Positions 2,991 to 64,000 of a DNA stretch of 64,000 nt are shown here, piece by piece. Source of the stretch: Microthyrium microscopicum (lineage: Eukaryota > Ascomycota > Dothideomycetes > Microthyriales > Microthyriaceae). Positions within the stretch are counted from its first letter, which is position 1. Every line of letters starts with the position of its first letter. A model generated the notes under the pieces. That model made no database searches, was not told where the DNA came from, and saw nothing but the letters and a program-made list of their open reading frames with translations. The position numbers were made by a program, and so were the translations under genes. The DNA lies in contig MU004240.1 of the NCBI GenBank assembly GCA_010405405.1, positions 78,217 to 142,216 on the forward strand, written 5' to 3'.

Positions 2991-4322
2991 ATCTTTTAAT
3001 AGAGATATACTTGCTCTCTATTATGTACTTATTACAATGAAATAGTCCTAGATAATGTTGATAGAACCTGACATGAAATGTAGTAGAAGAAATAACGTGG
3101 CGATTACTAGCTCAGAGGGAGCACACTAGTCAAGTGCTCTTGCCTCTTCAAGTCTGTCAACAAGATAATTGGCGCACTGTATCATCTACAGTGTCTCCCA
3201 CCTAATAAGTTCTATAAAAAGATGTTATTTACTCACTAGTGCATTCAATGGAAACCCGACGGTTCTGGCCGCGTATTAACGGCAAATACAACACTTGGTT
3301 CTATAGCATAGCAGATGGTAACCAGCGCATTTGATGGCAGCGGGTCATTTATTTGTGTCTACCAGTTGTCTGGGTGCTCAAAACTACATTGGGCTTTCTA
3401 TTGAATACTAATGACGGGACAAATGTTTCACGTTCAAGCCCACGAGTTCATTGATCGCACTTTGACAGCTATGGCCATTGTGCGATGCTTCCCTGTCTCC
3501 TGGGCCTCAAATTCTGGTTGAGCAAAGACTATTTAGACGGCTAACAACTCCTCCAACAAAATTAATAGCAAAGAACTAAATTTAGGATACATCCAAGCTT
3601 CACAGTTGGTGTTTGGAGAGTTACAACTTACAGGGCGTCGGATCCGGAACTTCCATCATCAAATTTACCAAGTATTCATAACTTAGATTGCTTGATACGG
3701 TTGGTATTGACCACTAATTACGCAAGTTAATCAACTTTTCAGCAGAAATTATGCTAGTCAATCAATTTGGGATTCGTATTCTCTTATATGATATGTGATG
3801 ATCCATGTTCTAAAGATAGAATAACGTTTTTTAGAGTTTAGACTAGTGGTTTGCAACTGGGGAAACAACGATTGACATACACGTGTGCAGGGTTGTTGCA
3901 TATCCTTTTTGACGATCAATTCCTTAGTTGCTTGCTTTTAAATTAACATGATCAGCAATATGCTAAAAAAAGGATATGGTATCAGTGCGATCAAGAGCCT
4001 GATACAGGACGTAGCGAATTTCTGCTTGAACCACACTTTGTATTTGCTTCTATCGGCACGGTAGGCATATGACGATATGACCACATACCACAGACCACAG
4101 ACACGCATGTCGAGGTCACAACTCGGTGGGAGCGTGTTGTTTAATCTGTCAACCTCTAGGTAGGGAAAGTTCAAGGCATAATTGAAGGAATTCGTATGCA
4201 TCATTACGCTAAATTCAAAATGGATGTAAAGACCCCTGCTATCTCAAAGGGGGTATCTAAATCGTGAGGCTGAAAGGGGGAAATTGTGAAGCTATTTTAC
4301 AGTGATTATGCGATTTGAAGGC
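2991..4322. other. intergenic, no supported gene
   Basis: Normal-composition DNA between the AT-rich block and the transcription factor's 3' end. Only short frames occur (for example 3938-4204, minus), without recognisable domains or convincing splice partners. It contains the 3' flank of the minus-strand gene; nothing else is supported. Confidence 0.6.
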
Positions 4323-33440: not shown

Positions 33441-34919
33441 ATGCCGGAAAATGAGGTGTCTGCCGAAGATTTGGTTGCGCGCTTTCTAAGGTTCCATGGA
33501 TATAACAAAGTCAGGCACAACCACGGTCGCCAGTTCTGATACGAATGCTAACCTTTGCTCATAGACACTCGATGCATTCTTGAATGAAGCGAACCTTCCC
33601 GCTGATGCCGGTGAGCATCTTGGCCCAGAATGGACGGTTGAGAAAGTCTTGTCAGAGAAGAAGCTGTATGACTTGACCGCGAACTTCGAAAAGACTAGTC
33701 TCAAAGAGAAAGATGCGTCATGGCAGACACCATGTGAGGGTACTTCCTCCGTTCCAAGGAGTGACTCTAACGATCTTAAGATCCTAGTGTTGCAAGCAAA
33801 CTCGAACTAGAATCGCCTTCCAACATACTGCAGACGAATGTTGTGAAAATGTTGGTATCGCCTTCAGACAACGAACCATCACAGGTGCTATTAGCCAGCT
33901 CAGCCGACAGAAAACTCAATTGGGCCAAACTAGACGGCTCGTCCATTTCCTCTCTATCAGTGTTCGGATTAGTCGCAGATTCGCCAATCCTATCGTTTGC
34001 CATCATCAAAGCACGCTATATAGCATTAACAACCATATCAGGGGCACTTTTTCTCTTTGATCACTGGTCGGATAGCGTAATATCAAAACGAAAAGATCAT
34101 TCAAAGTATGTTATTCAGGTAATAGCAACTGAATATGACTCCAGCCTTCTTCTAGCCACAGCTTCCTGGGACAATTCCGTAATACTCTACAGGGCAGCAA
34201 CCGGCAACAACACAATCACCATTTCGGAGCCTCTTGCAAAGCAGAAACTAGATTCACAACCCGAATGCATCATGTTCAAGGAAGATCCAGACACCAACAC
34301 ACTCTATATCTTATGCACCCGCAGGGACTCAACTTTTCTCTATTACTACCAAGTCACCAAAGACGACTTGCTTTTGGCCGGTAAACAGAACCTAGCACCA
34401 TTTGCGAACTCATGGATATCCTTCTCACCATCAATCATCGCGGCATGTCCTACAGACGATACGCTACTAGCCATCGCCACCTCTTCAATGCCACACATGA
34501 AGATTCTTTTCATCCGCACCTTATTTCCCCGCGAAGAACTTGATTCCGTCACTGGCGCACCCATTGCAGTAGCTCCAACGCAGGCGGCTAGAGATCAAGA
34601 TGTGGATCCGCGAGAAGCAGCAGCCGTAATCATTCATGCAAACACCTGGATATCACAGACTCGATACTCAACACCAACAGTAGTTTGGCGACCAGATGGT
34701 TCCGGTGTTTGGGTTAACAGTGATGAAGGGTATATCAAAGGAGTCGATCGAACAGGGAAAGTACAAGCTTCGCTTCAACAGCATGATGCCGGCTCCAAAG
34801 TGCGGTGTCTTTGGGCTGGCAATGCGATGGTGGGTGTTAGTGGCAAGGAGGAGGAGATTATTGTTAGTGGAGGATTTGATCAGAATGTGTTCTTATGGAG
34901 ATGTAAAGAAGAAGAATAG
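33441..34919 (+). CDS. LisH and WD40-repeat protein
   Basis: Three exons. The first ends at GGA TAT AAC AAA (intron start gtcagg), the second begins ACACTCGATGCATTC; joined they read ARFLRFHGYNKTLDAFLNEA, a clean LisH dimerisation motif broken by the intron. A second intron (CCA T|gtgagg to ttaag|AT CCT) restores the frame into the long last exon. That exon carries degenerate WD40 blades (LLATASWDNSVILYRA, IIVSGGFDQNVFLWRC). The protein is a probable scaffold; the partner complex is unknown. The 3' end converges on the six-Cys gene with 180 bp between stops. Confidence 0.85.
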
Positions 34920-35099: not shown

Positions 35100-35704
35100 T
35101 CAAACATTATGGTTGGTCATATGGACGACCAAGTCATTGTCCCAGTCCTGTCTGGCGCCAATAGAGCCTTTGGTCGTTAGTTAGAAAGACACTAGATGTT
35201 ATAGAGCACTGTTCACTTACCACCGCGTTGTTGACAGGTGTTCTCGATGGCCTCGATGAGAGTCACAACCTCCCAACAGAAAATTTCGGTGATTGTGCCG
35301 TGACCCCAGGTGACACCAGAGATGAACAAACCATTCGACTGACAAAAGTGGCCATCCGGTCCTCCCACTGTCATACAGTAAGTGATGATGTTCGACTCGG
35401 TCTATCTAGATAGTAATAGACTGACCTTTGCACATGGTACCGGCCGGGAGAGACCGGATCTTGTCCTTGCAGATTCGGATGTCTTCGACGTTGAAGTTTC
35501 CGTCATTGCATGTAAGCGCATAGTGGTCATAACGAGCTTTGATGTCGCGACCATCTGGAAGAGAGGCATGTCAGCATACTCAACCTGAAAGGAACCATTA
35601 TATGGTCACTTACTGAGCTCTCCAGATGTAGCCACCGGCAGGGTCGCGGCCATGGAGAAGCCGATGGTGCAGAACACTGCGACAAGAGGAGCTAAGAAGT
35701 GCAT
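35100..35704 (-). CDS. six-cysteine secreted protein, copy A (144 aa)
   Basis: Four exons (35614-35704, 35426-35554, 35221-35367, 35100-35167) splice in frame to 144 aa. The signal peptide is MHFLAPLVAVFCTIGFSMA. The mature part has exactly six cysteines (46, 59, 72, 82, 104, 118), spaced C-x12-C-x12-C-x9-C-x21-C-x13-C, and ends DLVVHMTNHNV. It aligns along its whole mature length with the plus-strand protein at 40191-40721 (same spacing apart from one residue, shared FCQ, SG...WG and VVH...H-x-V). Even cysteine number and small size suggest a disulfide-stabilised extracellular protein, possibly an effector. Family not recognised. Confidence 0.82.
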
Positions 35705-37824
35705 TCTGCTGCAGTCTGAGAGGCTTGAAGCTTTAGTAGGGGTAGGAAGGTATTCAAATCTTTGATTCAAAGTTGAGCACAAGGGCCGGAGATGTGTACA
35801 CTGGTAGAGTTGAATAGCACCACTTAGTGAATGGAAGCAATTGTGGACAGAAGTTCTGAGAGTGTGAATAGCATGGCTTAAGTATAGACAGAGGCAAACG
35901 GATCTCTATCCAGGGAGCTCTCAAGCAAAGCTATGATAACTTGCCTTGTATAAGCTTGATGTCAATAACAGACCAAGCAAGGGTTGATGCTGAAAAGCTA
36001 CGACATGGTTTATGCCGAACATAATTGGAAAAGAGCCAAAAGCTTCACAAGTCTGCGTTTGCTCCACCTCTGAGTTGCCATGTCCAGCAGCCTGGCGAAC
36101 GAGCACTGTTGAAGGATCAGGCTCATATTCGGATCCCAATGGCGCTGTGATAAACTTGCAGCACGGTAACAATATCAGATGACACGCTTCAATTGACCTA
36201 GATGGTTTCCATCGTACTGTATGAAGAAAATATGCTTTGCTCCCCGGCATATTTAATAGCGAATTGAGAAGTTTAAGCACCCAAAGGAAGACGAAGCATC
36301 TGATAAAGCAGCGTAGTAGATGGTAGGCATAACATAGGTACTTAACGGAAGTGTATCGTTCATTTTGTTGACCTGCCATCTTGCTTGGGCTTACACCGAC
36401 ATTCAAGGCTTGATGGGGGATTTGATAGAACCCATCGTCTCCAGTGTCTACTTGACTTCATTGCCAAATCAATTCCAAACGTGTCGTTGCTGTTTGCAAA
36501 ACAGGTATAGGACTGGACACGTTCATTAGTTTGATATACCAATAGTGCTCGCACAGAGCGGGTTTTAAACCACTATCGATGAGCAACAGTAGGCATAGAG
36601 GATCTTCGACCACCAGTGACGGCAGGCGGGTATCTTTAAGGTGTGAGATCGATTGGTTCAAAAATACTTGCCATCTTGTGCAACAGTCGGTTATTACATG
36701 CAGCTGGTCTGTGTAGGTATAATCTCCGTTTGTACCATTGTAATCCGACAACGGCTGCCAGCTGGCTCTACTGGCTGATGCAAAAGACAATGAGTCGTTA
36801 TCTCCAGTACAAACAGACAAGATGGCGAAGTGACAGGTAAAACTGCGACCTTAGAGAATCCGCTGATCTTTTCAATACGCATTGAGCTTGGTGTTTTGTT
36901 GTCACATCTTGACCACAGCTGTAATTGCATTATAAGACATATTTCAAGAAGTTCGAAAATCGGAATTGCTCCTGAAGAACTCAAAATGAATGTTCCAAAG
37001 TCTAATGCTAGCTCTTTGTAGGGATGGCCAATTATTCATGAAGAACCTTGAAGCAGATCTGAAAGTCGGCAAGCAAACAACGACAAGCCAACCGACATTG
37101 CACGATGGTGAAACGAACCCCTTAGGAGAGTGGCTGCCTCCGGGATGTTTCAACGAATTTGTTTGGCCAAAGCAATGTGTTCCTGCAGCACAGATTCGTG
37201 CAGCGATCAGCACACAAAATCTTAGAGATAATTTCCCTTTTGCCGGCGCTCCTTGAATTCTTGCTGGGCTGTTCGCTGGGCTGCTAGGCGGTCTAGTCGA
37301 CTTTTGGACGAATGCGTTAAGGCTTGCCCCCTGACTGGACAATGTAAGCCATCCCTAGATCCACTCGGGCCTAAACAAGTCTAGTCAGGTACAGGCACGA
37401 CATGCCACAGACGACGCTCGACGCTGGAATTCGCAAAGCTGGCAGGTGTCAATTTTGGCGCTTGTCTGCAATCATGGGGAGCAGCGCTGTGTGAGGTGAG
37501 GCGTCGATGAGCCGTCAGTCGCTGGTCAGTCAGAAGTCTCCACTCGGCGACGGCGTTGAATGACTTGGCCGCTATTCCCACTTCCCTCCTGTTCATACAT
37601 CCTCCTTATCCTTTTGCCTGTTGTGTATTACTTCGAGCTTGTATGTTATTCTGACTCCAGTCACTCATTTCTTGGAATCATTCTATACACTCTTTTCTGG
37701 AATTGATTTCCATCATTACGTTCTTTGATAGACGAAACATTTCCAACAAAATCTACAAACAACACTTCAAAACAACCAATCCTTAACGACGTTCGTTTAT
37801 TTTCAAAACCTTAAATCAGCATCA
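35705..37824. other. intergenic, uncertain minus-strand coding
   Basis: About 2.1 kb between divergent secreted-protein genes. Open frames at 35921-36406, 36458-36820 and 36944-37342 on the minus strand, and 36990-37256 on the plus strand, are longer than chance neighbours but have no domain, signal peptide or splice chain I can defend. They may be a decayed gene. The promoters of copy A and of the Pro/Ala-rich gene lie at the ends. Confidence 0.5.
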
Positions 37825-38988
37825 TGAAGTTCCAACTCGCAACCGTCTCCCTTCTGGCCGCTGTAGCTCTGGCTGATAGCCACGGTCACGCCCTTCGACA
37901 TCTCAAAAGCCACCCGAAATTCAAAGCCGTTACTACCGCCACGGGTCATCATGGAAAGAATCTGGTATTGATCCTTCATATGTAGTGTCGATTTATGTAC
38001 GGAACTCTAACACTATATGTAGACTACCAATGCTCATCATGGCGGTCATAAGAACGGAACACACCATAACGTCAACACAACAACAACGATGACCTCGACC
38101 CAAACTCATACCGCAACCGTCACCGCGGCCGCCGTCTCTACTGCCGCCAACGAAGCAATTGGAACTCCTGGAAGCGGTACTCCCGGCTCTGGTGTCGCAG
38201 CTCCTGCCAACAATCAAGTACCTACAAGCGAACCTGAGGATTGCGACGAGGACGAAGATGAGAATGATCAGGAGGATATCTGCGAAGACGTCGTTACCGT
38301 AACATCAGCCATCTATGTCACCTCAACCCTTCCGGCCGGCGTTCCCGCACCCACTGGACCAGCACCTGCTGCACCTGCTGCACCTATTGCCCCAGCTGCC
38401 CCAGCTGCCCCAGCTGCTCCGGCAGCTCCAGTTGCACCCTCTGCTCCAGCAGCTCCAGCAGCTCCAGCCGCCCCAGAATCTGCCGCGCCAGCTGCACCGG
38501 AAACTCCAGAAACTCCAGAAGCTCCAGAGACTCCTGAGACTCCTGAGACTCCTGAAACCCCCGAAGGAAGCGGATCACAGCCATCCCCAATCTACCCCTT
38601 TTCCAACAGTACTGCGACCACCAGCAAAGTTCCTAGCGCTCACGAAACCTATGTCAGTCAACCACCCGCTGGCACCGGAGCTTCCGCGTCCTCGGATCTA
38701 GCTCTAGCCAAACCAAGTGGCGATTGGCTCAGCTCTTACCCCGTCAGCAGCAATGCGCCCGCGCCAACTTCAGCCAGCGCGATGCCAGTATCTAGCGAGG
38801 CAGCTCCAGCACCCAGCTCGGCACCTCCCGCACCATCCAGTGATGTTCCAGCACCAGCCGCATCCAGTGCACCAGCAGAGAGTGATAGCGTTGTCGTAGT
38901 TTATCAAACTGTCGCAGTTGTGCCGGAACCCGTCTCGAGCGCCGCGCCCGCCGCACGGTTCAGACAAATCCGACGAAACCTTCACTAA
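37825..38988 (+). CDS. secreted Pro/Ala/Thr-rich low-complexity protein
   Basis: Two exons; the first ends CATGGAAAGAATCTG|gtattg and the second starts ACTACCAATGCT. Signal peptide MKFQLATVSLLAAVALA, then a His/Gly-rich segment (ATGHHGK, NAHHGGHKNG), a Thr-rich run, an acidic patch with two Cys (PEDCDEDEDENDQEDICED), then a long Pro/Ala block with APAAP units merging into PETPE repeats, and a Ser/Pro/Ala tail. No GPI-type hydrophobic C-terminus is seen. This looks like a wall-associated, O-mannosylated protein. Repeat number in the Pro/Ala block may vary between strains. Confidence 0.78.
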
Positions 38989-40190
38989 GCGGAGGCAAAT
39001 TTGAGAAGGAGGGAGCGTGTCCATTTGAGCTTATGACCATAGAGATCGGAGGAGATATGCGAGTGTAGTGAACGAAACACGGCGCCGGAGTTGATGCCGC
39101 TGGGTATGCTGGTTCTTGTATCATTTCTTTACGTACATTTACACCAAGATTCTGTTTTGTCATTAGTAGGGTAGTTTAAATGGACTGGAATATAGAAAGA
39201 TTTTACGATTCATGGCTGTTGTAGACAATGCTATAATCTGCAGGTTGTGCAGTCCTTATATGCAGATAGGATATGGGTGATGACTCTTCCGGGGTTGTAC
39301 AATGGCTCCAAACATTCCGATAGGTATTCTTGGAGTGTTCATGCACTGCGACAGCTCGAGCTCAAATGTGGCAGACCTCGGGCATGGCAGAATGGAATCA
39401 AGATAACTACAACAAGTCTCATCGAAAGGAAATTTCCCATTCCAAGGCAACACAGCCTGGCTACCTTCTGTTCTAAAGTACGACTTACTTCAATCCAATT
39501 TCTAGTAATTTTCGGCTAATCTTATGGCTGTTGATACGATATCTCAGCTAGAACATATTGTCGCCTGGCTATTTCATGGATTAATCCTTCTCTCGACGAT
39601 TTAATTGTGGGCGAACCGGAAATATTCGGGACAATGCATGCCAACTTATATGGGGAAAAGATTGTTTGTCCTACCTTGAACCGGTTCGAAACGATTCTTG
39701 TCTAGGTGAATCGCTTTGAACAACGCTAATGATACGCTTCCTCAATACCTACAACCTCAAGCCGACCTCAGGTCAACCTAAACTTGCACCTGTCATTATT
39801 CAGCTAAATGCTGCCTGAACTTCAATGATGACAATAGCCTTCACAGAGAAGTGGATATTTCAATATCTATCTTGCGCCATGATTCTTGTACGCCTCAGTG
39901 ACTGTTGTGCTTCACTTCGGCTCACCTCCAAGAAAGAGGATTCCCAGCCGCTCACATAGTCACTGAACTCATTCTCAATGAATCAAGCTCGAGATGCCTT
40001 CACCTTATGCTCATTTGAAGCTTTAGTGACTTACAAGCGACCCGCCTACATGTATTTAAGCTATTTCGCAAATCCGCGTACTGCTTCTTGTTCTCTATCA
40101 AAAAACCTCCAATTCCACTCAGCGCATATCTGAAAATCTTTCTCGTACTACAAAGCCACTTAACAAAACCAAAGTCCTCTCAACTTCAAA
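38989..40190. other. intergenic, no supported gene
   Basis: About 1.2 kb between the Pro/Ala-rich gene and six-Cys copy B. An unremarkable 90-codon frame at 39247-39519 (+) has no features. Confidence 0.6.
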
Positions 40191-40721
40191 ATGCGCTTTC
40201 AAATCCTTTCCACCATTCTTGCTATTGCAAGTATCTGCATGGCCGTCGCGGTTCCATCCCCAGAGGCCAACCTAGGTAAGAATAACCTTAGACTTCTCTT
40301 ATAAGCCCCATCCCAGCTAACAACTTCCAGCCGTCCGCAACATAACTCAGTCGCTCAACTATCCGCTCCGTTGCAACACGATGAACCTAAACCTCAACGA
40401 CGCCCGAGCCTGTCGCACACGAATAGGCGATCTGGGATTCAACACAATGTGCCAGGTGCCTCCAATTTCGAGCGGAAACTTCTGCCAACAAGGCGGAGTA
40501 TACGTAAGCGGTCGGGCTTGGGGCGTGAACCCGCCAACCGAAGCTCACTGTTCGGTCGTTGGAGACATTGTGAGCATCATCATCAATGGATGCGGTAGTC
40601 AAGGTGGCTCCCTAGGTGTCTTTGGTTTGGATGGTGATGTAGTCGTCCATGTTGCTGTAAGTTTGGTCTTATTCAATCCGTCCTGATTTCAAGCTAACAT
40701 ATATAGGATCATGATGTTTGA
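40191..40721 (+). CDS. six-cysteine secreted protein, copy B (141 aa)
   Basis: Three exons (40191-40275, 40331-40656, 40707-40721) splice in frame to 141 aa. Signal peptide MRFQILSTILAIASICMAVA. Mature cysteines at 43, 56, 69, 80, 102, 116 give C-x12-C-x12-C-x10-C-x21-C-x13-C, matching copy A (35100-35704) to within one residue. The ending DVVVHVADHDV mirrors copy A's. The first intron is phase 1 and sits just after the signal region in both genes; the later introns differ, so the copies are not recent. Apart from small size and predicted secretion, function is unknown; candidate effector or antimicrobial. Confidence 0.85.
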
Positions 40722-41355: not shown

Positions 41356-43133
41356 CTATAATCGAGCCGTAATTTTCTCCTGCTTCAACATGGCTTCAGC
41401 CACATTCTTTCGCTGAATTTTGCCAGTCGCCGTTTTTGGCATGATATCAGTAAAGTACACCTTCACGACAGATCAATAACTTGTTTGTAGCTTCATAGCA
41501 TAGAAGCTGAACATACCTTCTTTGGTAGCTTAAACTTAGCCACCTTGTCCGTCATCCACTCCCTCAACTCTTCTCCCGACATCTGTGTTCCTTGCTTCAG
41601 TACCACCGCGATCCCAATATCCTGCCCAAAATGCTCGTCCGCAATCGCAAAGCTTACTGCCTCACCCACTGACGGATTTTGCACTAGCACATTATCCAGC
41701 TCAATCGGGCTAATCTTCTCACCACCCTTGTTAATCAACTCCTTGATTCGACCTGTCAGAAATAGGTATCCATCCACATCCATCTTGCCTTGATCGCCAG
41801 TTCGGAAGTAGCCATCGGCCGTGAAACTGCTCTCGTTTGCTGATGGATTGTTCAAATAGCCAGGCGTCACATTGGGACCACGGATACAGACTTCGCCCTC
41901 GCCACCCTGAGGTACTGCTTTACCAGCAGCGTCAAGGATACGCACGTCAACTCCTTGGCCTTTGCCGACACTGCCGGGCATGCGTTTGGCAGGGGGTAGT
42001 GGATTGGAAGTCATCTGATGGGCGGCTTCAGTCATGGCATAGGCTTCGAGAACCGGTGCTTCAAAAGTCCTTTCGAGGTCGTGAAAGACTTTAGGACTGA
42101 GTGGTGAGGAGCAGGAGCGGATGAAGCGGATATTGGGAACGGGTGATGGCTTGGGCGACTTTAATAAGATCTGATGGATAGTTGGGACCGCAGTATACCA
42201 GGTGGCGTGGTGATTGATGAAATCCTTCCAAAATTCAGAGGCGGAGAAGCGAATGGGGACGATGACTGATCCGCCGGTCGATAGTGGTGCGAGGAAGCCT
42301 GCCAGTAGGCCGTGGACGTGGAACAGGGGCATCACGAGAAGAGTTCTGTCAGCTTTGGTGAGTTGATATGTGTTTTGAATGTTCTCTGATGGTCTTGTTA
42401 GTTTCTGGAATTTTGAGATAGATGAATACTTATCAACTTACGCATCGTTCTCGTGAGGTTGGCATGTGTTAACGGCACAGCTTTCGGTCGACCGGTAGTA
42501 CCACTTGTATGAAGAACCAAGGCAACGTCGTCTGGCCGAGCTGTTGAAATTGATACTGGCCCATTACTTTGAAGTTTCCCTAGCTCTTTCATGTCCAATA
42601 CTATCTCGTTGCCATCCCAATAGCACTCTGCTATGGCAGCTTGGAACGTCTTGCCAGCTTTCACAGCATCAGCGTTCTGAGAGTATGCTCCCTTTGGTAC
42701 AAGAAGAAGCGCTGATTTGAGATCATCAATATAGAATTCGAATTCACCCTGTTTGTATGCAGGGTTCAGCGGAGCCGCAATGCTAAATATCCTTGTCAGC
42801 CATCATGTTCATAAGTCACGACTGTGACGATCATCTTACCCACGTTGCCACGAAGTTGCGAGAAACGACACCTACAAGACGTCAACCAGTCAGAAGGAGG
42901 TTCAATAAGTTTTTCTAGTAATAAGTGCGGCCTCTTACTATGAATTCCAGGCTATTGGGTAGGGCTATTGAAACGGCAGATTGAGGGCCAATGCCGGCTG
43001 CAGCTAGCTTGGCTTGAAATTGTGTGCATTGTGACACTAACTGCTGGTACGACAGCACAATAGGATTGGGACTACCTGGCACAATAATAGCAGTGTCGGA
43101 GTTTTGAGGTAGAGCGTTAGCTAAAGTAGACAT
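41356..43133 (-). CDS. PCS60: Pcs60-like peroxisomal acyl/oxalyl-CoA synthetase
   Basis: AMP-forming adenylating enzyme of the acyl-CoA synthetase superfamily. Several exons from MSTLANALPQ (43131-43133) to ...EKITARL and TAG at 41356-41358. The AMP-binding P-loop reads LHTSGTTGRPKAVPLTHANL; later motifs are AYAMTEAAHQMTSNPL, GYFRTGDQG, LTGRIKELINKGGEKISP and PKTATGKIQRK (catalytic Lys). The C-terminal ARL is a variant PTS1, agreeing with peroxisomal import. Yeast Pcs60/Fat2 is oxalyl-CoA synthetase; substrate here is inferred from similarity. An upstream in-frame ATG at 43205 is possible but I prefer the later one because the sequence begins to resemble the family there. Confidence 0.88.
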
Positions 43134-43702: not shown

Positions 43703-44078
43703 TGGGGAGGGTTAGCTGCACCTTTTCCGACTTTTTTGTTTCGTATCCGAAAGCACGAATCTGAACTACAAAGAGCCTTAGCGTAAGCCTCATTATCATA
43801 GCCTAAGCTATAGCTCTTTTGAAAACAGAGTCAAGCTAAGCTAGCCGAAAGATATAAGCCAATAGTAATAGAGAGCTAAGAGAGATAGACAAGGCTAGGC
43901 TACGGTAGGTTAGAAAACGCCCTTTCCAAAGCCAAAATTGTGCTTAAATGTTGCTCTAAGGCCTTAAGCTGAGCTCAAAGCCCTAGAGCAGCTTTTTGGC
44001 AGGTTAACTTCTTTAGGAAGGGATTAAACGTACCGGAATACTCCGAGGTAGCAGGATTTGAGCAGCTAACCCTCCCCA
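43703..44078. mobile_element. small TIR element (about 376 bp)
   Basis: Begins TGGGGAGGGTTAGCTGC (43703) and ends with its reverse complement GCAGCTAACCCTCCCCA (44062-44078). ATAA stands on both sides (43699-43702, 44079-44082), a possible 4-bp target duplication. Its body is AG/CT-rich with RIP-like transitions and no frame. It touches the left end of the next element. Confidence 0.65.
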
Positions 44079-44623
44079 ATAACGTAGGGGACCCAGATCT
44101 CGTCAGACCCACTTCCCGTCACCCTAATTTGTATAGAGCCTCACCAAAAAGTAATGTATTTCAAATAGATATAATTCAACGACTAATAGCTAGAATTAAA
44201 TATCGTTTAAAATCCCTTATACTACATTTTCGTAGCTTTTAAGTAGTTATAATAATAAGGTCTATAATTCTTAAAAGGATAAGTAGGAGAAGATTTAAAA
44301 AAACCTATAGTAAAGTAACTAAAAATATCTTAATAACGATAAGGTATTATATAGCGAAAGCTATATCGTTATATAGCTCTTTCTCTTAGGATTCTAGAAA
44401 TATAATAAAATTTATATAAATGTTAAGAATAAAGCCTCTAAAAGTAATAAATAGTTTTAAAAAGGAATAATATAACGAATTATAAATAACTTCTTAAGTT
44501 AGTATAAATATTAGACTTTCTTTAGTATTTTAGAATCTAGAGAATAAGACTTATCTAATAATATAACTTTTGTCCTATAATATCTAGTTATTTAAAAGAT
44601 ATTTTTTATTACTTTACTATAGA

Positions 44624-44785
44624 TATTAGGGGTTAAACTCTCTAAAGCTATGCCCGTTTAAACTATCTCTATTATATATAAATACCTTAATTAAAGAGTC
44701 TCTTAACTCTTCTTTCTCTCTAAATTACCTTCCTATTTAGTAAGCTTATAATATAACTTATCTTTTTATTATCTAATCTATAATA
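44624..44785 (+). repeat. 5' LTR (162 bp)
   Basis: Starts TATTAGGGG (TG of the terminus mutated to TA) and ends ...CTATAATA where the right copy has ...CTATAACA. It contains a TATATATAAAT box near 44673. It matches 52041-52202 in exactly the same length, with scattered transitions only. Confidence 0.88.
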
Positions 44786-47700
44786 TTAGGTAACTTTAAA
44801 ACTAACCCTTTTTTTTATCTACTTCCTCTCTATCTATTAATAAATAGCTAGAATAGTAGACTAAGATTCCTTTTATTTAATAACTACTAGATAAGATAAA
44901 GAAATATTTTTTAAGAACTTTACTTATAAGAATATAGAAGTATACTTTACGTATATTAATTAATAATAAATAGAGCTATAAAACTACTTAGATATATCTT
45001 AAGAGGTAACTAATAATAGCTTATAATAAGTAATAAATAGTATTTTACTACTTAATAATACGCTTAATTTATCTATCTTATAATTATATATAACTACTAC
45101 TAGTTATAAATAAGCTCTATAATAACTAAATAGGTTAACTAATAAAATTTATATATAATTAAATAAAAATATATAATAGATTATAGTAGTCTATACTAAA
45201 CTTTAGGCTTAAGTTAATAGCTAGAATAAATAGCTTACTAATATCTATATTAGTAGTAAGATCCTTATATAATAAGTAAATAATATTATCTATAAGATAC
45301 TAACTTAATAGTAGTAGTAAGAATAGGAATAACTTTAGAGAAAATTTATAACGCCTAATATAACTTTTTCTTTAATATTAGCTATACTCTTTACTAAAAA
45401 AACTTCTAACTATAGCTATTACTCTTTTCTAATTTTATAAGCTAATTTTCCTTAAACTCTAATTATAATAGCTAGACTAGTAGCCTCTCCTTTATCTCTT
45501 TTAATAAATCTTTTAGCTACTTAATATAAGTTACTTTAACTACTACTATAAAACCTCTAACTAACTTTCTTAAACTTAGAATAATATTTATATAAAGACT
45601 TAACTTTTTACTCTAGTTTTTACTAAATAATTAAAGCAAAATTATATATTAATAAATAGATTTATATAAATAACTATATCTAAATTTACTATATATTTAG
45701 CTAGCTTATAGGAGATACTACTTAATAAGTTCTTTTCTAGATTTAGAATTCTACTAGCTATAATATTATAAGTTTTAGTAAGTTTATAGAATAAATAGAC
45801 TTTCTCTTCTATAACCTATATAAAGAAATAAGAGCTTTAGTAAACTTTTAAGGAATTTAGTAAAGAAGTAAAGAATAGAGAATCTTTTAGACTAAGTTTT
45901 AGTAATATCTTATCTATACTAGAGTATAATTTTAAGCTAATTTTATTTAGATATAATTCTTAGAAAACGCTATAGATTTTAGTCTTAGAATAGTTTTAAT
46001 TACTTATTCTTAGCCTAATAATTTAAATACCTTTACTTAAGAAGCTTTAGAGACTTAGGATTAAATAGTTTAAGCCTATATAAGTTATTATAGCTTAAGA
46101 GGCCTAAGCGTTAAAATAAGTACTTAGTAAAGTTAACTATTTAGAAATTAGGACTTAGACGTAATAGAAGGTATCTAAGTTAAAGCTAGCTAAGCCTAGC
46201 ATAATTATTATAAGTAAAATAACCTTTATTTTTACTATAGCTTAACTAATTATAGAATTTAGAATTATAAATAGATACTTTAAGTATTATTTAGAAGTTA
46301 GAATTTCTTCTATAGCTAGGCTAGCTATAGATAAGGATAAGGTAGAGGAAGTACTACTAAAGATAGATACCTATAGAATAATACTAATAAATTCTAGGCT
46401 AGTACTATTAATACTTTAAATATTCCTTAGAGTAGCTAGCTAGTAAGAGCTACTACTACTTAATTAAGAAATAATAATTCTTATAATAATCTATATAATG
46501 TTACTAATATAGAATTAGAAAATTAGTAAGCTTAAATTAAAAATATAATACTAAGCTAGAAAATTATAAAAATATTATTTTAAAATAGTATTAGAAGTTC
46601 TTTACTTAAAATATAGTTATAAAGCTCTTTTTAATACCTTTAATAGTAAATTAACTTTCTTTATATATAGGCTTTATTAATAGTAGCTATTTAACTTATT
46701 CTTTTATAAGTCTCTACTTTATTTAAAGATATAAACTTAAACGTATATTACTACCTTAGGTAATTCTTATTAAAAAGATAAATAGTAAGGCTAGAGAAAT
46801 TTATAAAATAGTAATTATAAAGATTAATATTAAAGGCTATAAAGAAACTATTTAAGCCTTTATAGTAAAAGAGACCCTAAGCTATAATATAATCCTTAGC
46901 CTACCTTAAATAAAAAAATAAAATATTATTCTCTATATAAAACTTAAGAAGCTAGTCTTTAATAAAATAGGTTATATAGTTATAAGTCTAAAGACTCCTT
47001 AGAAGAAATATAACTATATAGCGATTAGAGCTATAGTATTTAAAATACTTACCTAATAAGCTAGAAAATAAGTAAGATAGTTTTAAGAAGGCTTAATATT
47101 AATTATATAAGTCTTTACTATAAGTCTTTATAACTTATAAAAAGTCCTAGCTCTAAAGAAGTATATTAACTCTTATAGGAAGCTTCTTAAATAGTATTTA
47201 GATTACTTTAATCTTTTTTAAAGAGAGCTAGCTAATAAATAGCTACTTATCTAAGGCTCTTTTATAGACTATAAAATTAACTTAATCTTAGACGCTAATA
47301 GAAAGGAACCTTAGTTACCTTAGTAGATATTATACTTTATAAATTAGAATAAATTACTAGCTCTTAGAAGAATCTTTAATAATTTACTAAAAAGTAGGTT
47401 TATTTAAGTAAGTAACTTACCTATTAAAGTATTAGTTCTTTTTATTTATAAAGTAGATAAATTAATTTAGTTTTATTATAACTACTATGTATTAAATAAG
47501 TTAATTATAAAAGATTATTACTTCTTATTACTTATTTATAAAATACTAAATACTTTAGAAAAAGTATAATAGTTTATTAAGCTAAATATATTTTAAGTAT
47601 TCTATAAGATTTAGATATATAAAAGTAATAAGTAGAAGATAGCTTTTTAAATATAATATAGCTTATTTAAATAAATAGTAATATTATTTAGGTTATTAAA

Positions 47701-50700
47701 TACTCTAAGTACTTTTTAGAAGTTTATTAACTCTATTCTTTAGAATATTTTAGATAACTATATTTCTATATACTTAAATAATATCTTAATCTTTAGCTTA
47801 GGTACTAGGAAATAATATAAGGTTTACGTTTATAAAGTCTTTAAATAGCTATAAAAAGTAGAACTTTACTTTAATATTTAGAAGTATAAATTTATAACTA
47901 CTTAGATAATATACCTAAGCTATATTATTAAGGCTAAATAAAGAATCTTAATAGATTTAGCTAAAGTTAAAGTAATCTAAGAATAAGAGGCTTTTAAAAA
48001 TATTTATAGAGTTTAAGCTTTTCTTAGCTTTACTAACTTCTATTATAAGTTTATATTAAACTTTTAAATAATTATAGAACCTCTTATTTAATTTACTTAG
48101 AAAGATGTTCTCTTCTTATTTAAAGACTTAAAAAGAGCTACATTTAAAGAGCTAAAATAGCTCTTTATTATTAACTAAATACTAGCCTTATTTAACTATA
48201 ATAGAGAGACTTTTATTTATATTAATTTTTTTAGTTACTTTTTAGGAGCTATACTAGTATAAAAGAATAAAATAGATAAGTTTTAACTAGTAGTCTATTT
48301 TTCTAAAAAGTATAACTTTACTTAAAGTAACTACCTAATTTATAATAAAGAGATACTTATAATTATATTTACTTTAAAAGAATAGGACTTAAAACTATAA
48401 GTAGTAAAGAAGTTTAAAGTAATATTTAATTATAAAAACCTAGAGTATTTTATAAAACTATAGAAGTTTATAAAAAAGTACGTTTAATAATCTATTAAAC
48501 TTATAAAGTATAATATAATAATTAAGTATTAACTAAGCTTATAAAATAGCGTAGTAAATAATCTCTCTTATTATAAATAAGATATATCTTAGGACGTAGC
48601 TAATAAGAAGATCTAAGCTAGAACTTTTTAACTACTTTATACCTAAAAAAATTAATTACTTAAACTACTATAAGCTTTACTTATTTATATTACTACTCTT
48701 TTTATAGTAATTAAAAATAAATTAGTAAAGACTTTACTAGCTAATAAAGCTTTAATTTCTAGCTTATTATTACTAATACTAAACGTTCCTAAATTATTAG
48801 TAACTTAGTAGAATAAGGTAGTATAAGCTAATAATACCTATTAAGTAGCTTATTAAATAATTAAAGTTAGAGAATAAAAGTTTCTCTTATTAATTATAAG
48901 TATTAAGATCTCTATTCTTAACTACTTAATTAATAGTAAGAATTACTTTTATTAGAAAGAATAACTATAGATCCTAAATCTAGAACCTCTATAAATAGTA
49001 ATATTATAAGTAGCTTATATATTCTTAACTTAAGGCTATTCTAGCTATAAAGGCACTTACTAAGCTTTATAGTTATACTTTTTTTAGCCTAGAATTATAG
49101 CTAATATAAGACATTTTATAAGAAATTATAGTATATATAGCTAATTAAAAATTAGTTATAAGTAGAAAAGAAGCTTCTTAAAGCCTTTACTTATCCTAAG
49201 CTAATAATAATAAGAACTATTTATAAATTTTATAATAGACTTCCCTCTATTAAATAGATATATAATCTTAATAGTTATTATTAATTAGCTAAGTAAAGAA
49301 GTAATCTTAATCTCTCTTACTTAGAGAGAAGCTAAAAACGTTATAGCTATTTTCTTATAACGTATCTATTCCTTTTATAGTATTTCTAATATAATTATTT
49401 ATAATTATAACCTAGTATTTATAAAAGACTTTTAGATAAAGTTCTATATACTATTATAAATAAAGCTATAATTATTAACTATATTTTACTTTTAAATAGA
49501 TAGCTCTATAGAATAGTAAAACTTAGATATTAAAACTAAAGTATAAATATATATAAATTATATATAATTAAATTAGTTCTTACTAATATTAATACTTTAA
49601 CTTATACTTAACTTATAATACTTATCTATAATAGAACTTTTACCTTTCTTTCTATTCTATAGCTTTAAAAACTCTACCTTCTTAGACTTTTTTAAGTAAG
49701 CTTCTTTATCTAAATAGAAGAATACTTTAAAAGAGAAAGAAAAAGAAGTTACTTATATAATTTTAAAAGTTATAGAATAGGCTTAAGATACTATAATCCT
49801 TACCTAAGAAAGAATATAAGAATAAGCTAATTAAATAAGAATTTAAACGCCTAAGTATAAAGTTAGTAATTAGGTTTAGCTAGACCTAAAGAATACTAAG
49901 ACTAAATAAGTAAAGAAGAAGTTTAATTATTATTACTCTAAGTTTTAAGTTATAAAGATAGTAAGTTTATATATAATTATACTAAATATACTATAAAGAA
50001 CTAAAAAATTCTATATTAACTTACTTAGACTAGTAATAAATAACTTATTCCTAAGTTAAGATACTAATAATTCTTATCTACTATTAATCTTAGTTAAGAA
50101 CTTAGATAAAGAGGAATAAGAGAAATAGCTAGTAAAGAAGATTATAACTAAAAAATATAAAAAGATAATAAAGAGTAAACTCTATATAATTTATATTATT
50201 AAATAGATAGGTTATTTAGATATAATAGAAGAATTAATTAACTTTATTAAATAGTTAAAAGCCTACGTAAAGTAAATAAAGAAGATAAAGTACGTATAAA
50301 ATAATTATAAAAGATTAGTACTAAACTAGTCTATTCTTTAAGTATAACTAAGATTAAAAACTAGCTCTCTTATTATAGTAATTAACTTTATAGAGATATA
50401 ATTAGAGGTACTATTTATAACCTATATATAAAAATACTTTTTTTTTATTTATACTAAGACTTTCTTTCTTACTAAATAAAACTAGAAAATTATAAAAATA
50501 TAAAAAAACTAAAAAAATAAGATATACCTAATAAACTTTTATTACTAAGGAAGAAAAACTTAAGTAATACCTTAAGGTATAGAAGAACTAAAGTAGATAG
50601 TTAATAATAAAGGATTCTTATCCTCTTTAGTAACCTTCTCTTTATTATTATAAAGATACTTTTTATCTAAGTTAATATTATTATTATAAACGTAGTTTAA

Positions 50701-51473
50701 ATATATATTATTATAAAATCTTAAAAGCTAAATATAACTAATATACTATAGCTAATTCTTAGAATTAGAATAGCTAATATAGTAAGTATAACGCTACTTT
50801 TTATAAACCTTAGTCTTTTTAAGTTATAAGATATCTATATAATAAATACCTAAGGCCTTAAGATAACTAGCTTAGCTACTAGTTAACTAAATTATAGTAA
50901 AGGTACTCTAATAGATTATAATATTATGAACGTTAGGCTATAAACTATTAGTAAACCCTTTAGAGGAGGCGTTTAATAAATTAAGATAGTTATTAGAGGA
51001 ATTAGGAGAATAGTTAGCTATAGTATAAATAGCTTTACTTTATAAATACGTTAGTACGAACTAAGAAAAATAAAGGAAATATATATAGTCTAGTTAATAT
51101 AAAGTATCTTAAATAAAGTATAGTTTTGTAAATTATAGTAGTTAATAACTATATATATCTTTTTATAGATAAAAGTAGTTAGTAAATAAGGACTTAAGTT
51201 ATAAATAATATTATTCTAGTAATAAAGTAGAACTTAGGTAAGAGTATAAAAGCCCTTATTTACGTTATTTTAATAAGCTTTATGTATAGCTACCTTATAT
51301 GTAGTAGGTAAATAAGGTTAAGGAGTATTATAATTAGTAACGTATATATAAGGAGAAGTAATAGTAATAAGGATATAACTATTAAAGCTAATAGTATTAT
51401 TAAAAGTATTAATAATTAGAGTAGCTATCTCTATATAGTTAGTAAGGCTATAGCTATTATAACAAATAACTTA

Positions 51474-51530
51474 CTTAATTAATTAATTAATTAATAAATT
51501 AATTAATTAAGTAATTAATTAATTAATTAG
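51474..51530. repeat. (TTAA)n microsatellite
   Basis: A run of TTAA/AATT units inside the 3' non-coding part of the retrotransposon, downstream of the chromodomain remnant. Confidence 0.8.
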
Positions 51531-52040
51531 GTAAGGAAGAAGAAACTTAATAAGGACTAATTAGAAGAGAAGAAGCTTATTTAAAGTATAATAAAAGAAG
51601 AATAGTTAACTTTATAAAATAATATTACTTTATACCCTCTAAACGTATAAGTAAAAGTATAGTAACTTAACTATAGTTATATTCTTTTAATCTTATCTTT
51701 TAATATTATAATAAAGCTCTAACTAAGTATAAATAAGATAACCTACTAATTAAGTAACTTTTATAAGATTATAATTAAAAAGAACTAATATTATACGCTA
51801 AGAAAGGGGCCTTATACCTAGAATTTAGTTTAAAATAGGTAAAATACTAGTATAGAACTAATAGTTAATAACCTAAGCTTTATATTTTATACTTAAAAGT
51901 AAATATATAAATCTATACGTTATAAATAAAAGCTTTATTATAAACTATAAGAATAGTAAGTATTAGATATAGCTAGATAAGATTAAAATCTTATAATTAA
52001 CTTAGTATTTTAGCTAGAATTTTTTAGATAAGAGAAGTAA

Positions 52041-52202
52041 TATTAGGGGTTAAACTTCCTAAAGCTATACTTATTTAAACTACTTCTATTATATATAAAT
52101 ACCTTAATTAAAGAGTCTCTTAACTCTTCTTTCTCTCTAAGTTATCTTCCTATTTAGTAGGCTTATAATATAACTTGTCTCTTCGTTATCTAACCTATAA
52201 CA
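52041..52202 (+). repeat. 3' LTR (162 bp)
   Basis: Direct copy of 44624-44785, no indels. It keeps the terminal CA and is preceded by a purine-rich stretch (GATAAGAGAAGTAA, polypurine-tract position). Confidence 0.88.
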
Positions 52203-52669
52203 ATAGAGATTTTTTAACCTTTAATTTTAGGTTAATAAGACATAATACTCTAGCAAAAACCTAATAGCTTAAGAGATCTATCTTAGACTTATAAGCTCTT
52301 TAAATATTTAATAATTCTATCGTAAGGTGATTAAGTATTAAATATCTCAAAAGAGCTATTTTGGGTATAGAAGGGGTGACGAGAAGTGGGTCTGACGGGA
52401 TCTGGGTCCTCTACGTTAAGCTGTCTCAAAAAATTAGCCCAAACCCCTGCGTACTCCGTAGATCTAAACTGACAGGGGTTCCTTCCCGAAGTGCCAGATC
52501 CGACATGTCTTGGCGTGGCTCTCGTGGGTGCAGTCCGAGGTCATTTTCTCAACACCAACTCCATTTACACCACCACTTCATCAAAGCCTTACTTTGGCCT
52601 AATCACCATCTAATAAATCTTTTGACCCGATATCGCCTTCGACACCTTCCTCCCACGGCAATCACAAGC

Positions 52670-58471: not shown

Positions 58472-60092
58472 AACTGCGGAAGCTTGATACAGTCAAATAA
58501 ACGAGTGTCTTTGGATTGGTTCTGATGGATCAGCACTACAGCAATGCGTTCTAGACTTGATATATAGCGTTCAAATCATGGAGCAGATTAGTGGCTCAGC
58601 CACCTAATATTCAAGAATGGCTCCAAGCATTCCTCGCTTGAGCTCTGTGGCCAGAGAATGTGGAATGCTAGAGATTAAAGAGGCTGGTGAGAACCAGGTA
58701 GGCTTCGTATCGGGAGATATTCAGCATCTGGCCAGACGGTAATTCATCAGTATTCGATTTTGATCATCGAGAGAATGATATTGCAAAGACATAGGAGCTA
58801 TCAAAAAACCATACCAGTCCGTGAGTTCATAGCCCACTCCACGCCGCACCGCACAAATAAATCAAAATGTACGAGCCTTAATGAAGTATTGGTTTTCCAC
58901 TCGCGATTCATTGCTACCTTCCTTGGTTGCCAATTCTAGCGCCAACTCCTAAGCCAGCGAAGTCAAGGACACCACAGTCAGATAGGAAGTCTTCGCTGCT
59001 CAAAACTTGGGGATTGCTATCAAAGCCTTCCACGCTTCTTTTCTGCTTGAAAGAAGTAGTATTCGTACTCTGAGGGTTGGTTACAATGGTTTCATAAGGC
59101 GGAAGATTAAATTGCCTCTCAGAATTGTCTTGTGTTGAACAATTTATAGTCATGCAGGTTATCTACCTGGCTCAACAGACCTGGAAGATTGGGGGAATGT
59201 AGACATACCACTTTGTTTGCACAAAAGTTTCTTGGATCGAGCCCGGTTTTGGAGATCACCTTTCAAAAATGAAGAAACAAGTTTTAATGACACCAGAGCA
59301 TTTGGAGAACAAGTGTTTTAAGGTGAAGTTGGTCGAAATGGCTAAGCTTCTAAAGAAAAGCCGCGAACGGGACGAACAGGAGGAAGATATTACATTGATT
59401 CTCATGAGACCAAACCTCATGGTACTGTCTTGCAGCAGTGTTATTCAGTCAGTACTCTAGTCGGGATCAAAATTGATCGCGCCATGAAACCTCCCGTTAC
59501 CTACAATATCTACCACAACCCTTCTGAAAAACTGACTTCAAAGCCTACCGCTGTCGATAATCTGGCAAAAATTTGATGCATTGGATGGGAATTCAAACGG
59601 TCTTTCTGCAATGAATCCTTTTGGCAGCTACCGTATTTGCTAGCTGTAGCGCTGAAATGGTCCACTTGTATTGATGCCTTGGAGCTAGAATATTTGTGCT
59701 TTCATCAATACAACAGACGAGTAGTATCCGTGAAGTTGTCTAGTCTGTCATACCACAATCAAGATCAGTGGTGGTACTTCTCGCAGACACGTCAGTTTAT
59801 CGATAACTCGATACCTTGGGGTGCAATGGCCTAGCACAATCTGTGTAGCTGCTTGCGACCAGTACGACAGTGATAGAAAGGGGAACTTGTGATATAATCC
59901 AGGCTCGTAGCTTTGGAGTCCCGTTGAAGACCTATTTCCCGGAATCCAACCCCATTTTAGCCTGTACAAACCAGGACACTTAAAATCGGCCTGGGAAGAA
60001 CTGGAACTCTCTCTACGAATACGAAGGGACCAGACCGGCGGCAGCTTTCAATCGAGTTGAGTTTCCAATGATGATGGATGGAGTGGATTGGG
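58472..60092. other. intergenic, no supported gene
   Basis: About 1.6 kb. Frames at 58914-59153 (-), 59269-59460 (+) and 59637-59834 (+) are short with no domain or signal peptide. Confidence 0.6.
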
Positions 60093-63000
60093 GACCGTCA
60101 GCAGTTCAAAAGACTTCCAACGGAGAACGCCGAAGGGGTAGATCTTTGCCAAAAAGGGTATAGCGCTTTGAACTTAGTTTAAACTATTTAAACTCAGTTT
60201 AAAGGCTTTAAACTCGTTTGAACTAGCTTTTTAGCGTATATTTTAACTAGAATAGGTTAAATATAATAGTAATTTTAATGTTATATAATAATCTTAAGAT
60301 ATAGATCTTTAGTAGTATGGAATATTAATATTTAAATAGTAGATTTTACGTATTAAACGTACTAGAATAGCAATATATTAATAATGCTAAATTTAATATT
60401 AAAGGGATATAAAATACTATAGTTTATATAGATAAAGTAGAAATCTAGATAATCCTATTACTACTATTAGTAAATTATTTAAGATATAATAGCTAATATT
60501 ATATAATCTAATACTACCTTTATTTTAATACCTATTAATCTAAATTAATCTAGAGTTAGATAACTTAATTTCTTTACTACTAAATGATTCTTAGCTAATA
60601 AGATTTCTATTATAATAGCCTTAATTTTTAAGGACTACGCTAATATTAAACTTATAAGATATATTATAGAATTTAGTATATTTTAAGTCTTAATAAGAGT
60701 CGTAGTAGTATAAAGATTAGATAATAATTCCTAATGACTACTTATAGAATTAAACTGTTATAACGCTAGATAGTTATAGTTAGAACGACTTTTAGAGCCT
60801 ATTATAGGCTCTTTAAATCTTATTAATATAGCCCTTTACTAGCTAAATTATTACTAAAAAGTGCTCTTATAGAAGGGGAGGTTAAGTAGCTACTAGGACG
60901 TCTACTAGGGTACTTTTAACTATACCTTTACGTTAAGGAATATACTAGTAATTAGAATATAGATTTTGTACCCTTACTAATATTATTAGGATTATAAATC
61001 GTTATAAGTAAGTGTATAGTAGTAATAGTAGTAACGCTATTATTAGATAGAAGACTTAGTAATAGAAAGATATTATAGCTAAGTATAAAAGTAATACTAG
61101 TTTACTATAAGGCTCCTCTAGATAGGCTTTTTAATAAGCTATTAAGAAAGCTATTAAACTATAGGTTATTAAACTAAAAGAAGAGTTAAGATATATTATA
61201 CTAATAAATAAATTTTGTATTAACTTAGACCTATTTATAGAGATATTCTAAAGGTATAAGAATACTATTTAATAGAAGAGGTCCTTATAGGATACTATTT
61301 ATTAACGCTATAAAGATACTATAAAACTTTAAGAGATACTTAACCTTACGTTCTTTAAGAAGTAAGCTCTTCTAACTAGTATTAAAAAGGATAAAGATAT
61401 TAAGATAAATACTATTAAGCCTAAAGATACTTTATATTTACTATTATTACTATTATTTTTAATATCTTTATTATTAGTACTAAATTAGGGTATTAAAGGA
61501 ACTACCTCTTACTCTAGACTAGTTCCTAGGATCCTTACTAAGTTATAGGCTTTACTAATTTAAAGTAGAAATATAAGTATTTCTTAAGGTTGTAGAACTT
61601 AAAAATTTATAACTAAAATTAATAGCGTTATAGATGTTTATAATTGTCTAGTTCTTTAGTTAGATAAGATAAATTTAGATAGGAATAGTACTTATTATAA
61701 GAATATTATTAATAATAAGAATATTAGTAGTAATAGTAATAATAAAGGAATTAAAATTATAGAATTAAGAAAAAAGGTAAGGATTATACGTTTAAAGATA
61801 ATAAAGATAAAAGATATATTAAAAAGTCTTTATAATAATAGGCTTTAAAAAGGATATTCTAGTATTTCCTATATAAATTAGTAGTAGATATAAAAGCTAG
61901 TTTTTATAGAAATATTATAATAAATATTAAAAGCTTTAAAAGTATATACTAAGGTTAAATAATTAGCTAGCTCTACTTTATTAACTTTCTCTTCTTTAGT
62001 AAGAATATCTAACTTTACTCTATAACTTCTCTTTTATCCTTTACTATAATAGATACTTAATATCTTTTAAATCCTCTTTGTCTACTATATTATTAAATAT
62101 ATTATTTAGATTAAGATACTATTAAATAATTAGTAAATTAATTTAAAAGTAAGAAGATACTATATTTCCTTAATAATAAGTATAGTAGTTAATAAGTAAG
62201 AATGATATTAATATATATGCTTTAACTAGTATTAATTTTATCTATAAACCTAATCTAAAATTAGATATTTCTTCCTTAAAAAGGGCTTTTATATTATTAA
62301 CTACTTGCTTAATAGCAATATAGTATTTAAATATCTATTTATTAAAGTCGTGCTAGATTTAGGTTAGATTCCCTTAGAATAGTGATATAATTAAATTGTT
62401 ATTTAAATAGGCTATATTGCTATATAGTAGTAATTTTAGGCCCCTATTAAATATTTAAAAGAGGTAAGTTATATTTATATCTATATAGGATAAATACTAA
62501 CTTATTAAAGTCTATTTTTAAGACCTAATACTAGTAATATACCTAGATTATTTAAACCTCTTAAATATCTTAAATCTATTACTATTATTAATCTGTTAGG
62601 ATAGTAAATAATTTAGTATTTTAAATAGTAAGCTTTATTATATTTACTATATAATAATTGCTAAATTGGTCCTTTAGGCTTATAGATATTAATATAAGTC
62701 TTATTAATATAACCTTAAAAGATATTATTACTACTAGCACAATTAATTACTCTAGAGTACTAATAGTATCTTTCTATATTTAAAAGGAGATAGAATTTAA
62801 GTAGGGATTTAGTATAACGTTAGTTAAGATATATAATAGTAGTATTAAAGTAAGTCTTTAGGTATATTATACTTTTACTAAAGTACTAATAGATGTCGTT
62901 ATAAGTATATATTTTTGCTAACCTATATAATACTATATAAAGTAGAAAAGGTCTCTTCTAATATGGATTTAAATAATCTTATAGAGAAAGATTCTTAAGA

Positions 63001-63464
63001 TTAAAGAGCTCTATTAGCTTAAGGATCTTTTACTTTAAAAATCTACGCTATATAAATTAATACTATAGGCGTTCTTTAATATAGATTTAGCATAATATAC
63101 TAATACTTAATAATAGTTTAGTGATCTAATCTATCCTTAAGATTCTAGTTAAAATAGTAGTATTTTAGTAGTAGTTCTCTCTCTCTTTAATTCTTAACTA
63201 TCGCGAGATGTAAAAGTAGTAGAATTACTACCACTATAGTAATTATTATTAAACGCTGTTTAATAGCGTTTATTTTAGTAGTATTTTAGGTAAGATTATA
63301 ACTAAAAAACGCGCGTAGGGGAAATTTGTATGTAAGTGTTTATCCCTACATAATATTACGCAAAATCGCCACTAACGTATATAATCGCTACTTTAGGCTA
63401 GATCTGTAGATCTGTTCAGTTCAGAGGAGTTCAAATCCTGGCGCCAAAATTACTGGCTGACGGT
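60093..63464. mobile_element. RIP-like AT-rich block bounded by a short inverted repeat
   Basis: About 3.4 kb: AT-rich, stop-filled, poor in CA/TG. The limits carry GGGGACCGTCAGC (60093 onward) and its reverse complement GCTGACGGTCCCC (ending about 63464), an approximately 13-bp inverted repeat that could be transposon termini; the adjoining bases do not give an unambiguous target duplication. A tandem palindromic AGTTTAAACT motif lies at 60168-60226. I recognise no transposase, but the content cannot be read through the mutations. Confidence 0.65.
60168..60226. repeat. degenerate tandem AGTTTAAACT palindromes
   Basis: About five copies of TTTAAACT/TTTGAACT in about 60 bp, each close to a perfect palindrome, just inside the left end of the AT-rich block. 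They could be transposase-binding subterminal repeats; this is inference. Confidence 0.6.
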
Positions 63465-64000
63465 CCCCATTATAGTCTTGCAAGTCTGATTCAACCGCGT
63501 CCGATGATCCGATTTGGATGATCATCAAAACAGTGTCGCAATAAGATCAGCATTGCCAAGTGTTCATTTTGAATGGCGGACTGGCGGTTGAAGATTTGGT
63601 TGGGAGGGAGTGGATTCCCCCTGCATGCACGGATCATTCAGGAACGCGACAAGCGTCCCAATGCGCGATATGATTGGTTACATCAAGATGTCAAGTGTGC
63701 TAAGGAGCCGCAACTGTTTGTTTCATGTTTCAACTTTGCACAGCTGAGGCTGAAAGATGAAATGGAGGCTCTCTGGTTCCTGTTGTGAACCTGTGGTTGG
63801 TTTGAACCTGACTGATACGTGGGAAATACAATTTGTTGGTTTGCGAATCTGATATCATGGTGAGCCCCTTGATTGTGCTGATCTGAGGACAACAGATACA
63901 ACATTGGTCATGAAGAAGTAGTCGTAACATGATGATGCACAGCATAATAGGTGAATAAGTGGCTGATGCGAACTCCTTTCTTGACGATTACACGAATTAC
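63465..64000. other. flank right of the AT-rich block
   Basis: Normal-composition sequence to the window end. Frames on both strands are short; nothing supported. Confidence 0.6.

Follow-up and report, generated by a model that had tools for sequence, protein, structure and literature searches.

The 64,000-nucleotide stretch of the genome of Microthyrium microscopicum, a leaf-dwelling fungus of the Microthyriales (Dothideomycetes), analyzed here (contig MU004240.1, positions 78,217 to 142,216 of the forward strand; hereafter the window) contains two small genes, called A and B below. What kind of proteins do they encode, and do they stand alone as a pair? Genome searches place A and B in a family of small, predicted secreted proteins whose genes are scattered through M. 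microscopicum, and structure models predict that both adopt a KP4/ginkbilobin-2-like alpha/beta sandwich. We hold this assignment of fold and family together with high confidence.

Gene Models of A and B

The two genes and their introns are, as spliced:

35100..35704, minus strand: gene A (BT63DRAFT_482249), 144 amino acids, four exons (35704-35614, 35554-35426, 35367-35221, 35167-35100)
35613-35555, 35425-35368 and 35220-35168, minus strand: the three introns of gene A
35168..35220, minus strand: last intron of gene A, phase 1, splitting the two glycines of a GGS motif
40191..40721, plus strand: gene B (BT63DRAFT_442719), 141 amino acids, three exons (40191-40275, 40331-40656, 40707-40721)
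40276-40330 and 40657-40706, plus strand: the two introns of gene B
40657..40706, plus strand: last intron of gene B, phase 0, between VVHVA and DHDV

The spliced product of A has 100% identity over 100% of the deposited (predicted) protein BT63DRAFT_482249, and that of B is 100% identical to the predicted BT63DRAFT_442719, which bears out the 144- and 141-residue proteins that an earlier sequence-only reading had spliced. For the last intron of A, six donor/acceptor pairs keep the frame into VVH, and 35220-35168 was taken because it is the sole pair with a GTAAGT donor. The mature cysteines lie at positions 43, 56, 69, 80, 102, and 116 in B (spacing 12-12-10-21-13) and at 46, 59, 72, 82, 104, and 118 in A (12-12-9-21-13); each protein has one extra cysteine within the predicted signal peptide, and both end in VVH-x3-H-x-V. 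The cysteine pattern and shared ending proposed by that reading are therefore found in the spliced proteins. The two products are 35% identical by BLASTP (E 6e-25). Their mature alignment scores 202, a value attained by none of 5000 shuffles that held the cysteines in position (mean 29.8, standard deviation 6.2, maximum 73), and the likeness of A and B thus exceeds chance.

The Family in the Genome

Six-frame searches of the 36.9-Mb genome (20 contigs) with five members recover 21 loci on 10 contigs (C1, C2, C3, C4, C8, C9, C10, C11, C12, and C16); the total includes A and B and is a lower bound. The weakest locus counted, C16:162768, has a best E of 0.0048, and its spliced model fits the family alignment well, while the weak rows C14:764224 (E 0.069) and C3:2513372 (E 0.456) were excluded. 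The earlier description of a related pair was correct as to relatedness, but A and B are two of 21 loci and not a pair. Three paralogs lie inside about 24 kb at C3:461162-485014, others occur on C11, and two are found on C16, 18 kb apart.

Alignment and tree comprise 19 members, with C4:173372 and C3:483235 counted as loci but omitted for unconvincing gene models; the former (L014) is possibly a pseudogene, or it may contain an atypical intron. In this alignment (B numbering throughout), Cys116 and the GGS at 120-122 are invariant, and Tyr39, Cys43, Cys69, Cys102, Gly124, and His135 are nearly so. For the intron comparison, 15 of the 19 members were entered and 14 were usable, C2_4307775 being dropped. 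A phase-1 intron between the GGS glycines is common to eight of these 14 models, A among them, and an intron in the leader is likewise common to eight of 14, whereas the last-intron site of B is absent from the other 13. The models were picked by similarity and therefore lean towards agreement; for A, B, and C3_484619 they are identical to deposited proteins.

The same reading took A and B for probable old tandem duplicates, which is possible. In the tree the two are sisters, but the support of 84/87 falls under the tool's bar of 95/80, and an alternative tree pairing B with C16_144893 is not rejected (approximately unbiased test, p-AU 0.258). The branch of A is long (2.09 vs 0.47).

Cys56 and Cys80 are both lost in four of the 19 members and both kept in the remaining 15 (Fisher p 2.6e-4, ignoring relatedness). 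This joint loss supports a disulfide bond between Cys56 and Cys80 in the core, the only connection inferred. Both partners are replaced in the four-cysteine paralogs L011, L012, L017/L020, and L019; one of the four, C12_1050720, stands apart from the other three in the tree, although a tree with a single loss common to all four is not rejected (p-AU 0.076). The joint loss of Cys69 and Cys102 in one of 19 members was left unused because a nearby cysteine makes misalignment possible. Sixteen members were examined for their N-terminal features. All have a hydrophobic N-terminus, the signal peptides being judged from hydrophobicity alone, and 14 have an N-glycosylation sequon ahead of the core, of the form R-N-x-T in eight; the sequon is absent in A and C12_1050720.

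Predicted Fold

By sequence, the earlier statement that no known family is matched holds: Pfam returns five families for the 19 members, each in a single member and none convincing (best E 0.023). Protein searches with B, A, and the 19-row profile return 1, 1, and 5 proteins, all from M. microscopicum, and relatives in other organisms may be missed because the search requires exact shared five-letter words. The family profile has no match in the PDB by sequence up to E 10, and the RACK1 rows obtained with B alone (best E 0.4) are noise. DNA scans with P0001 picked out 25 stretches among viral contigs and 213 among prokaryote genomes, and none was confirmed. A literature search found no title on the family, which does not show that it is absent from print.

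At the level of fold, the description as an unknown family no longer holds, since the predicted fold is a known one. The models of A (m9e6a20b0ff45) and B (m2693ea3cad97), each examined separately, have the same element order and the same best structural matches; the dissimilarity of folds that would have spoken against a common family was not found. As modeled, the proteins belong to the KP4/ginkbilobin-2 structural class: most of the domain can be superposed on a solved member. The closest solved structure to both is Zt-KP4 (PDB 8acx), an effector of Zymoseptoria tritici, yet identity in the structural alignments is only 10-12%. Plant DUF26 proteins and ginkbilobin-2 (6gre, 6grf, 3a2e) have lower Z and a differing function. 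A viral structure library gave a best probability of 0.33 and no match at E 0.001.

UniRef names for the family conflict, with Cyanovirin-N given for A and B and Ecp2 effector protein for P0003 and P0005. The cyanovirin fold is all-strand. Cyanovirin-N identity is rejected in that no cyanovirin Pfam model matches the 19 members at E up to 5, and it is also disfavored by the model of B, which has two long helices.

Proposed Function and Alternatives

Toxins, antifungals, and effectors make up the majority of the nearest relatives with solved structures. We lean, by a small measure, towards the whole statement that this is a dispersed KP4-fold family of secreted, killer-protein-like antagonists; the antagonistic role by itself is tentative, at slightly below an even chance. 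In such a scheme, a leader that commonly carries an N-glycosylation sequon would precede a core held by the Cys56-Cys80 disulfide, and the proteins, once secreted, would work extracellularly as inhibitors of the killer-protein type. They would bind a target on the surface of competing fungi or other microbes and stop their growth, and the paralogs may have diversified through duplication for different targets. Function is here inferred from fold, and the effector and lectin alternatives share the same evidence. Judging from the models, A and B probably serve as weapons or effectors of a known type, though their sequences are unfamiliar. The earlier proposal of effector or antimicrobial candidates is reasonable for two related secreted six-cysteine proteins that have no known sequence family.

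Several results weigh against the favored reading. None of the 216 Foldseek matches of B reaches E 0.001, ginkbilobin-2 is near in E-value (8.0e-3), and KP4 itself (E 0.88) falls below some unrelated chains. The fold model was built from five sequences and is unreliable over residues 1-36 of B. Many antimicrobial proteins are cationic, whereas 15 of the 16 members examined have a neutral or acidic core. M. microscopicum is a saprobe, a lifestyle that the literature passages searched do not state for it. None of the 19 members matches Pfam Kp4 (PF09044) or Hce2 (PF14856; Ecp2) at E up to 5, and hhalign of the 19-member alignment against the genome's own Hce2 protein gives a probability of 0.1.

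The Kp4 and Hce2 profiles perform well in the same genome, where they find one Hce2 gene (C12:54194-54490, 105.6 bits) and two Kp4 genes (C3:875769-876206 and C5:209045-209398, 95.1 and 93.9 bits). Therefore, the family lies outside both by sequence profile, and membership of either on that ground is rejected. This separates it from the KP4 killer toxin of the Ustilago virus (1kpt), whose profile has true matches in this genome but none in the family, and also from Zt-KP4, which is labeled Hce2 domain-containing in the PDB (as quoted in PMC11952758). However, the genome's true Hce2 protein, searched against the PDB by sequence, finds neither 8acx nor anything credible, so sequence can neither settle nor exclude distant kinship to Hce2.

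Several papers describe comparable systems. In one study (PMC10462633), each of the 20 species had orphan effector candidates with the KP4/ginkbilobin-2 sandwich; these Gnk2/KP4 candidates are likewise sequence-orphan secreted proteins, whereas the present family has its own signature of Tyr39, Cys43-Asn44, GGS, and VVH with a C-terminal H-x-V. Contact with Trichoderma strongly raises expression of Fusarium KP4-like genes (PMC9506348), an alpha/beta sandwich is common to several killer toxins and KP4 blocks L-type calcium channels (PMC13211469), an anti-nematode toxin carries a KP4-like domain (PMC13324453), fungal effector fold families include KP4-like ones (PMC13304671), and antimicrobial effectors have old roots (PMC13127573). 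The KP6-like effector families expanded in Venturia inaequalis are similarly sequence-diverse and secreted, with a killer-protein fold (PMC9632046). The KP6 fold differs from that of KP4, and KP6 is absent among the matches listed for the family.

The alternative that survives best, though we consider it rather unlikely, is that proteins of the same fold act as plant-directed effectors in the apoplast or at the cell surface of a living or senescing leaf, and not on microbes. Zt-KP4-1-like structures recur widely in the effector candidates of stripe rust (PMC11952758), and the prevalence of the fold among orphan candidates (PMC10462633) points the same way. So do the description of the nearest solved structure as a pathogen effector and the UniRef naming of two members as Ecp2. 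Against this, the title of the Zt-KP4 paper reportedly gives inhibition of fungal growth by those effectors, and M. microscopicum is not known as a plant pathogen.

A broader proposal is that one lineage independently built a large KP4-fold arsenal, a target-diversified toolkit for antagonism or allorecognition with an active site unlike those of KP4, Hce2, and the lectins. Its signature would be the invariant Tyr-CN and GGS, with VVH-x3-H-x-V fixed at the C-terminal end and the rest diverging. We regard this proposal as unlikely, well short of the favored reading of killer-protein-like antagonists. It is improbable, too, that the proteins bind glycans for defense against animals or for adhesion, a use of the fold known from the mushroom lectins Y3 and LDL (5v6i, 4nds), since Z to these functionally different proteins is clearly below Z to Zt-KP4. 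Least probable is a structural, developmental, or self-recognition role in which the fold is reused without harm to others, which the mostly neutral or acidic cores and the silence of fold on function would allow, but to which the toxins, antifungals, and effectors among the nearest solved relatives run counter.

Genomic Surroundings

The neighbors of A and B look ordinary:

37824..38988, plus strand: gene for a Pro/Ala-rich, low-complexity, probable secreted protein, between A and B and outside the family (open reading frames 37824-37985 and 38089-38988)
33849-34919: WD40-like open reading frame (Pfam match under the cut-off)
41493-42332: AMP-binding enzyme (Pfam)

The Pro/Ala-rich gene contains 9-, 18-, and 27-base tandem repeats at 38362-38558, and Pfam finds no match in 38089-38985. 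The window has a guanine-cytosine (GC) content of 0.48. Three AT-rich blocks (1-3250, 44001-52500, and 60001-63500) have a GC of 0.20-0.24 and a TpA/ApT ratio of 1.5-1.7, against 0.7-0.8 elsewhere in the window, a dinucleotide signature suggestive of repeats that repeat-induced point mutation has degraded. An effector-like AT-rich neighborhood is not supported as a family trait, as no 500-base stretch with GC below 0.39 occurs within about 1.5 kb on either side of 19 paralog loci.

Implications

The work assigns a seemingly orphan family to a fold class already known and documents an expansion of this kind in the Microthyriales. It also illustrates that a fold need not be new when its cysteine spacing matches nothing in the databases. 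If the proteins do inhibit microbes, the family would provide about twenty natural variants of one scaffold for asking what sets target range.
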